Positions 5,724 to 5,984 of a stretch of DNA of 7,711 bases are shown piece by piece (position 1 is the stretch's first letter; each line of letters begins with the position of its first letter). The translations under genes were made by a program, and so were the position numbers. Under the pieces are notes generated by a model. It was not told the origin of the DNA, searched no databases, and saw only the letters and a list, made by a program, of their open reading frames with translations. The stretch is from Deltaproteobacteria bacterium. Lineage in GTDB: Bacteria > JAUYMQ01. The stretch covers positions 1 to 7,711 of the forward strand of contig JAUYMQ010000472.1 of the NCBI GenBank assembly GCA_030698575.1. Direction: 5' to 3'.

Positions 5724-5752
5724 TTGACAGCGCCGGATGGCTCTGATAGACA
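5724..5752 (+). promoter_or_regulatory. Strong promoter of the leu leader and leuA
   Basis: A perfect -35 TTGACA (5724-5729) is followed after 17 bases by TAGACA (5747-5752), preceded by the extended -10 dinucleotide TG (5744-5745). The TGaTAGAC form of the -10 is the same style as the divergent promoter in this window. Transcription should start around 5759-5762, at or just before the leader-peptide ATG. Confidence 0.75.
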
Positions 5753-5761
5753 ATCAGGACG

Positions 5762-5836
5762 ATGAAAACGCGGCGACCGAACATCCTGCTGGCCCTCCTT
5801 CCGAACCTGCTCCTTAGTGGGGCGGGAGGGGTGTAG
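5762..5836 (+). CDS. leuL: leu leader peptide (24 aa, leucine-rich attenuator peptide)
   Basis: ATG at 5762 to TAG at 5834-5836 encodes a 24-residue peptide that starts MKTRRPN, continues [11 protein letters not shown] (residues 8-18) and ends SGAGGV. Seven of 24 residues are Leu, all within codons 9-18, in the runs CTG-CTG, CTC-CTT and CTG-CTC-CTT. This is the composition of leader peptides that sense charged tRNA-Leu. It lies directly downstream of a strong promoter, upstream of leuA, and its last codons form the 5' side of an antiterminator stem. The predicted transcription start is only 0-3 bases upstream of the ATG and AGGA (5756-5759) is too close for a normal ribosome binding site, so translation from a nearly leaderless mRNA is likely. 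The gene symbol is used by analogy with the enterobacterial leu leader, not by sequence homology. Confidence 0.8.
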
Positions 5837-5879
5837 CACGTTTCGGGACATACGCCTTGTCGCGAAACCCCCTCCCGCC
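5821..5879 (+). promoter_or_regulatory. Antiterminator stem of the leu attenuator
   Basis: GGCGGGAGGGG (5821-5831, the last leader codons) is perfectly complementary to CCCCTCCCGCC (5869-5879). The pairing continues with GTTTCG (5840-5845) to CGAAAC (5863-5868) and GACA (5847-5850) to TGTC (5858-5861), closing a 7-base loop. That gives about 21 bp, with an 8-base bulge (5832-5839) containing the leader stop codon. The 3' strand of this stem (5861-5879) is the same segment that forms the 5' arm of the terminator, so the two structures exclude each other. A third pairing, CCCTCC (5793-5798, between the Leu codon runs) with GGAGGG (5825-5830), would sequester the 5' side when no ribosome is present. 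Confidence 0.75.
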
Positions 5880-5903
5880 GAGACGGCCGGAGGGGGTTTC
5901 GCG
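5861..5903 (+). terminator. Terminator hairpin of the leu attenuator
   Basis: CGCGAAACCCCCTCC (5861-5875) pairs perfectly over 15 bp with GGAGGGGGTTTCGCG (5889-5903). Inside, after one C-C mismatch, GCCG (5877-5880) pairs with CGGC (5884-5887) around an AGA loop. It begins 24 bases after the leader stop and ends 81 bases before leuA. The downstream sequence TTACAGG lacks a long T-run, so termination may be imperfect or factor-assisted. Confidence 0.7.
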
Positions 5904-5974
5904 TTACAGGACCTTGCACCAACCCTGCCACGAAGCTCGCTCGGGTCGTTCCTCGGCCGGATGGGGGACGCATT

Positions 5975-5978
5975 GGAG
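5975..5978 (+). promoter_or_regulatory. Ribosome binding site deciding the leuA start
   Basis: GGAG with a 6-base spacer precedes the ATG at 5985. It supports this start over the upstream in-frame ATG at 5961 and over the GTG at 5817, which would run the coding region through the attenuator hairpins. Confidence 0.65.
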
Positions 5979-5984
5979 CGAGCC

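Follow-up and report, generated by a model that had tools for sequence, protein, structure and literature searches.

A probable leucine-leader transcription attenuator in front of leuA in a lineage represented mainly by metagenome assemblies

Ribosome-mediated attenuation has its classical examples in the leu, trp and his leaders of enterobacteria, and the DNA analysed here, a 7,711-nt stretch from a Deltaproteobacteria bacterium (contig JAUYMQ010000472.1; ‘the window’), raises the question of whether leucine synthesis is governed in this way in another lineage. A first-pass annotation, made from the letters alone, had proposed a leucine attenuator outside the enterobacteria, and comparative data lend that interpretation good support: with a probability of about 0.92, the element is a ribosome-mediated (classical) transcription attenuator, through which the supply of charged tRNA-Leu would control leuA. 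Its parts, and the gene behind it, are listed here.

5724–5752, + strand: promoter (TTGACA 5724–5729, 17-nt spacer, TAGACA 5747–5752)
5762–5836, + strand: leader ORF, ATG 5762–5764 to stop TAG 5834–5836, 24 codons, 7 of them Leu
5806–5821, + strand: 1:2 hairpin (5806–5810:5817–5821), lies in the Leu codons and reaches the beginning of strand 2
5821–5831, + strand: strand 2, 5′ arm of the antiterminator, in the last leader codons; pairs with 5869–5879
5861–5879, + strand: strand 3, common to antiterminator (5869–5879) and terminator (5861–5875); covaries with strands 2 and 4
5889–5905, + strand: strand 4, 3′ arm of the terminator (5889–5903) and interrupted U-tract; pairing conserved
5985–7661, + strand: leuA, type-2 2-isopropylmalate synthase (IPMS) with LeuA_dimer domain (TIGR00970; PF00682, PF22615, PF08502)

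The identification of the gene as a type-2 leuA was borne out by a TIGR00970 equivalog score of 797.9 bits (cut-off 697.4) and by the LeuA_dimer domain. ATG 5985 is most likely its start, because the TIGR00970 alignment begins at residue 5 of the protein so read. On the minus strand, positions 4331–5530 encode a Radical SAM/SPASM protein (PF04055, PF13186), transcribed away from leuA, whose best NCBIfam matches fall far below cut-off.

A LeuA search of genome contigs gave 80 loci, in seven of which (L031, L032, L036, L038, L044, L062, L068) a leader of the same design preceded leuA. A covariance model built from the window and these seven matched 68/90 genomes of the class containing the L031 genome, and 67 genomes in a 377-genome sample of that phylum; all but two of the latter (G355, G366) were also in the class list, and the matches in these two (L221, L222) were Leu-rich leaders before an IPMS too. 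L148, L149, L177, L184 and L188–L190 were excluded as not leucine-type. Loci found via the element model are a biased sample of leuA leaders, and the independent evidence lies in features outside the model, namely promoter, upstream reading frame and downstream gene. The metagenome-assembled genomes (MAGs) bearing the element carry the public titles Deltaproteobacteria, Myxococcota or Proteobacteria. Among the genomes compared there was no other phylum member of the window's genome; its rpoB gave 69–73% against the element-bearing class in full-length comparisons, and no class was assigned on this basis, one genome outside the class (71.6%) being equally near. The window's own genome yielded no convincing second copy of the element, and its further HMGL-family synthase genes (L228, L229) had no Leu-rich leader upstream, a weak test for L229, which was read inside the gene. 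Searching the window against Rfam 15 up to E=1 gave nothing but a chance match elsewhere, seven homologous loci gave none, and no family reached its gathering cut-off.

The 24-codon reading frame with seven Leu codons, running from ATG 5762 to TAG 5834–5836 as first annotated, has counterparts throughout: an in-frame Leu-rich leader was present in 61/61 loci in which strand 2 could be anchored (mean 25.9 codons, 6.8 Leu). Of the in-frame codons upstream of the 1:2 hairpin, 27.5% were for Leu, compared with 3.8% and 4.4% for the two other frames, a contrast somewhat inflated by taking the most Leu-rich of the three as the Leu frame. The leader stop lies 10–17 nt after the strand-2 anchor in 44/61 loci (14 nt in the window) and 23–32 nt past it in the other 17/61, where masking of strand 2 by a ribosome at the stop codon would be partial. 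Automatic anchoring found no leader in four further matches before type-2 leuA (L173, L176, L181, L186), although L173 and L186 have Leu-coding stretches further upstream.

The promoter described for the window is seen as TTGACA-17-TAGACA, and its placement recurs, the hexamers ending 6–11 nt before the leader ATG in about 55/61 homologous loci, mostly with TTGAC and 17-nt spacing; a generic promoter scan, requiring T at the last −10 position, does not call the TAGACA of the window. In three exceptions (L168, L171, L183) an earlier in-frame ATG brings back the 6–11 nt distance. A Shine-Dalgarno core precedes the leader in only 13/61 loci. Transcription is predicted to start at about 5759, within a few bases of the ATG, and because the promoter ends so close to it in about 55/61 loci the leader ORF is probably leaderless or near-leaderless.

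Both long helices first read from the window are perfect there and conserved beyond it. The antiterminator, 5821–5831:5869–5879, has 11 perfect pairs in the window, and across a 57-row MAFFT alignment of the element 96.8% of its cells were paired, with 4/11 pairs compensated and 18 double-changed cells against 4.3 in shuffles. The terminator stem, 5861–5875:5889–5903, has 15 perfect pairs; 93.0% of cells were paired, 9/15 pairs had changes on both sides, and double-changed cells numbered 66 compared with 17.1 in shuffles, slid versions coming nowhere near. At columns 40/146/172 the covariation is three-way, 15 rows reading G-C-G, 14 reading A-U-A and nearly all of the remainder having G-U forms. 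Since columns common to strands 2, 3 and 4 change together, the alignment indicates that selection maintains both mutually exclusive folds. The covariation of both stems and the conserved Leu codons that the first-pass annotation had proposed to look for in relatives are thus present. The stretch 5755–5910 also folds far better than chance (z-score −4.5; equally stable shuffles 0/200).

Not every helix of the original proposal held. The antiterminator extension 5840–5845:5863–5868 exists in the window, but with 31.5% of homologue cells paired it did no better than shuffles and was dropped as a conserved helix. The proposed 1:2 helix, 5793–5798:5825–5830, was without covariation signal in homologues. 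What had been called a complete 1:2, 2:3, 3:4 set therefore stands in its 2:3 and 3:4 members, with a nearer hairpin, 5806–5810:5817–5821, replacing the first. This hairpin was paired in 79.6% of cells at fixed columns, which score as unpaired the several members that make it in a shifted register, and had nine double-changed cells compared with 3.8 in shuffles, a positive signal but weaker than those of the terminator and antiterminator.

Under the attenuation model, transcription would begin just before the leader ATG. When leucyl-tRNA is scarce, the ribosome would pause at the Leu codons and leave strand 2 (5821–5831) free to pair with strand 3 (5869–5879) before strand 4 exists, so that RNA polymerase would continue into leuA; when leucine is ample, a ribosome at the stop (5834) would cover strand 2, and strands 3 and 4 would make the terminator. 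In an untranslated leader the 1:2 hairpin would favour the terminator too. The computed alternative folds agree with this scheme. With an assumed ribosome footprint of 12 nt past the A site, a ribosome at Leu codons 9–16 leaves strand 2 outside the footprint and the antiterminator is made before strand 4; the fold energy for a ribosome placed on the first Leu codons, −42.2 kcal/mol, fits an antiterminator that precedes strand 4. A ribosome at the stop leaves the terminator alone possible, and RNA free of ribosomes folds into the 1:2 hairpin plus the terminator. In the full-length RNA the terminator is the more stable (−62.9 vs −56.3 kcal/mol for the antiterminator), and the attenuation model consequently depends on co-transcriptional order. 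The leucine response itself is predicted from these folds and from the codons of the leader.

How the hairpin would stop the polymerase bears on the choice between explanations. The lack of a long T-run, conceded from the outset as the weak point, is real in the window (TTT 5897–5899, CGCG, TT 5904–5905) and in most of the family: past the G+C stem, U frequency at successive positions was 0.72, 0.98, 0.89, 0.16, 0.18, 0.37, 0.05, 0.54, 0.79 and 0.89. Most members have two U triplets about 4 nt apart, the first of which, in the long stem, pairs with the AAA of strand 3; four (L154, L155, L174, L226) have an uninterrupted run of six or more U at the same place. Intrinsic termination at the split U-tract is accordingly a prediction and not a proven step. 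Leucine sensing and folds could be as described while the hairpin terminates only with the help of NusG or Rho, or acts via RNA processing, an account that overlaps the best explanation and differs in the last step alone. The interrupted U-tract of most members speaks for it, as do mycobacterial precedents, in which termination occurs at hairpins lacking a U-tail and NusG helps at poor U-tracts (PMC12288462). With the hairpin the best conserved part of the element, and four homologues having a canonical U-run in the same position, assisted termination appears unlikely on balance, if still to be taken seriously.

Control at the level of translation has much less in its favour. The actinobacterial LEU element (PMC1262725) resembles the present one in having a Leu-rich upstream ORF before leuA, and is a pseudoknot whose base stem pairs the Leu run with the leuA Shine-Dalgarno sequence, a pairing proposed for Actinobacteria in that work. 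The window does have CUCCUU in its Leu run and GGAG before leuA, so that a stalled ribosome could free the latter. However, only 36/57 rows carry CTCCTT, with CTGCTT in most of the remainder, and anything between 6 and 222 nt can separate the hairpin from the leuA start; the strand 2:3:4 switch, by contrast, is kept. Neither the Leu-run sequence nor its spacing to leuA is conserved as such pairing would need, and sequestration of the Shine-Dalgarno sequence, very improbable as the explanation, was rejected; in contrast to the LEU element, it is the terminator and antiterminator that are conserved here. Least credible of all is a stray terminator or repeat beside a chance Leu-rich ORF. A few similar hairpins with no leader do occur in related genomes (L189, L190, L223–L225), but the element is single-copy in its own genome, its folds show covariation and IPMS genes repeatedly have Leu-rich leaders in front, so that the comparative data already contradict this reading.

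With the classical leu, trp and his attenuators of enterobacteria the element shares a leader peptide whose codons call for the amino acid being made and a stop near strand 2, exclusive 2:3 and 3:4 hairpins with a 1:2 hairpin, and a position before the first committed biosynthetic gene. The present element differs from these in lineage and sequence, in having no Rfam match, in its interrupted U-tract, in a promoter close enough to make a leaderless leader probable, and in the type-2 LeuA or short IPMS downstream. PMC1183508 treats the leu/trp/his class of attenuator. In Sinorhizobium meliloti, the trpL attenuator has a leaderless leader ORF, its transcript starting at the leader ATG (PMC7298713); a transcript starting at that point is mapped there and only predicted here, and the amino acid is tryptophan there and leucine here. 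The literature searched, subscription papers falling outside it, held no description of such an attenuator in this lineage, and leuA goes unmentioned in two surveys that cover attenuators and structured RNAs in bacteria (PMC2965389, PMC2864571). The mechanism is already known in its classical form; its presence in this lineage is newly documented.

Further elements were noticed along the way. Attenuator-like elements lie before MFS transporter genes (PF07690) at L177 (G091:C153:29206-29347) and L149 (G060:C111:9101-9224), with Trp-containing leaders that include MSARRDWCWQRFF and MLARFEWTWLVV respectively, and a similar leader (..AWTVWKWK..) precedes an ORF at L184; these three are possibly tryptophan-responsive. 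The hairpins at L189, L190, L223, L224 and L225, terminator-like and of the same make (e.g. CCCCTCCCGCC..GGCCGGAGGGG), stand elsewhere in genomes of the same class and are without a Leu-rich leader. In other lineages, loosely tested and including Roseospira, Leu-rich ORFs begin 6–9 nt past promoter-like sequence before leuA (L033, L041, L042, L045, L046, L050, L051, L053, L070, L071, L074; many alphaproteobacterial by title), and leaderless Leu leaders may be more widespread.

The gene behind the element is constant in kind but not in form. At every anchored locus with a downstream gene on the contig, that gene encodes an enzyme of 2-isopropylmalate synthase type: 36 are type-2 LeuA, the window's included, and 21 are proteins only about 25–30% identical to type-2 LeuA. 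The latter are HMGL-family synthases of about 385–440 aa (e.g. L140, L154, L160, L164, L168, L182, L221, L222); HMGL and HCS_D2 domains, and no LeuA_dimer, were found by Pfam in 10/10 scanned, L164 among them, and the best NCBIfam matches of four scanned were bacterial leuA models, with scores below their cut-offs. From this we infer that the short proteins function as IPMS. In 20/20 genomes whose attenuator precedes the short form, a search for type-2 LeuA found none, MAGs being incomplete. The pattern points to exchange of the gene behind a retained attenuator, or to movement of the attenuator itself. Evenly poised, in our estimation, is the proposal that the leaderless-leader attenuator stayed while the gene behind it was swapped between allosteric type-2 LeuA and a short IPMS without LeuA_dimer, and that attenuation may be the main leucine control in the latter case.

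Leucine-leader attenuation would in this way extend to bacteria known chiefly through metagenome assemblies, and the alignment supplies a covariation-backed structure that Rfam lacks. The conserved terminator hairpin, with its split U-tract, is a candidate for factor-assisted termination. The element also offers a means by which the short HMGL-family enzymes found here can be assigned a role in leucine synthesis. A single attenuator appears to serve one enzyme in two non-orthologous forms.
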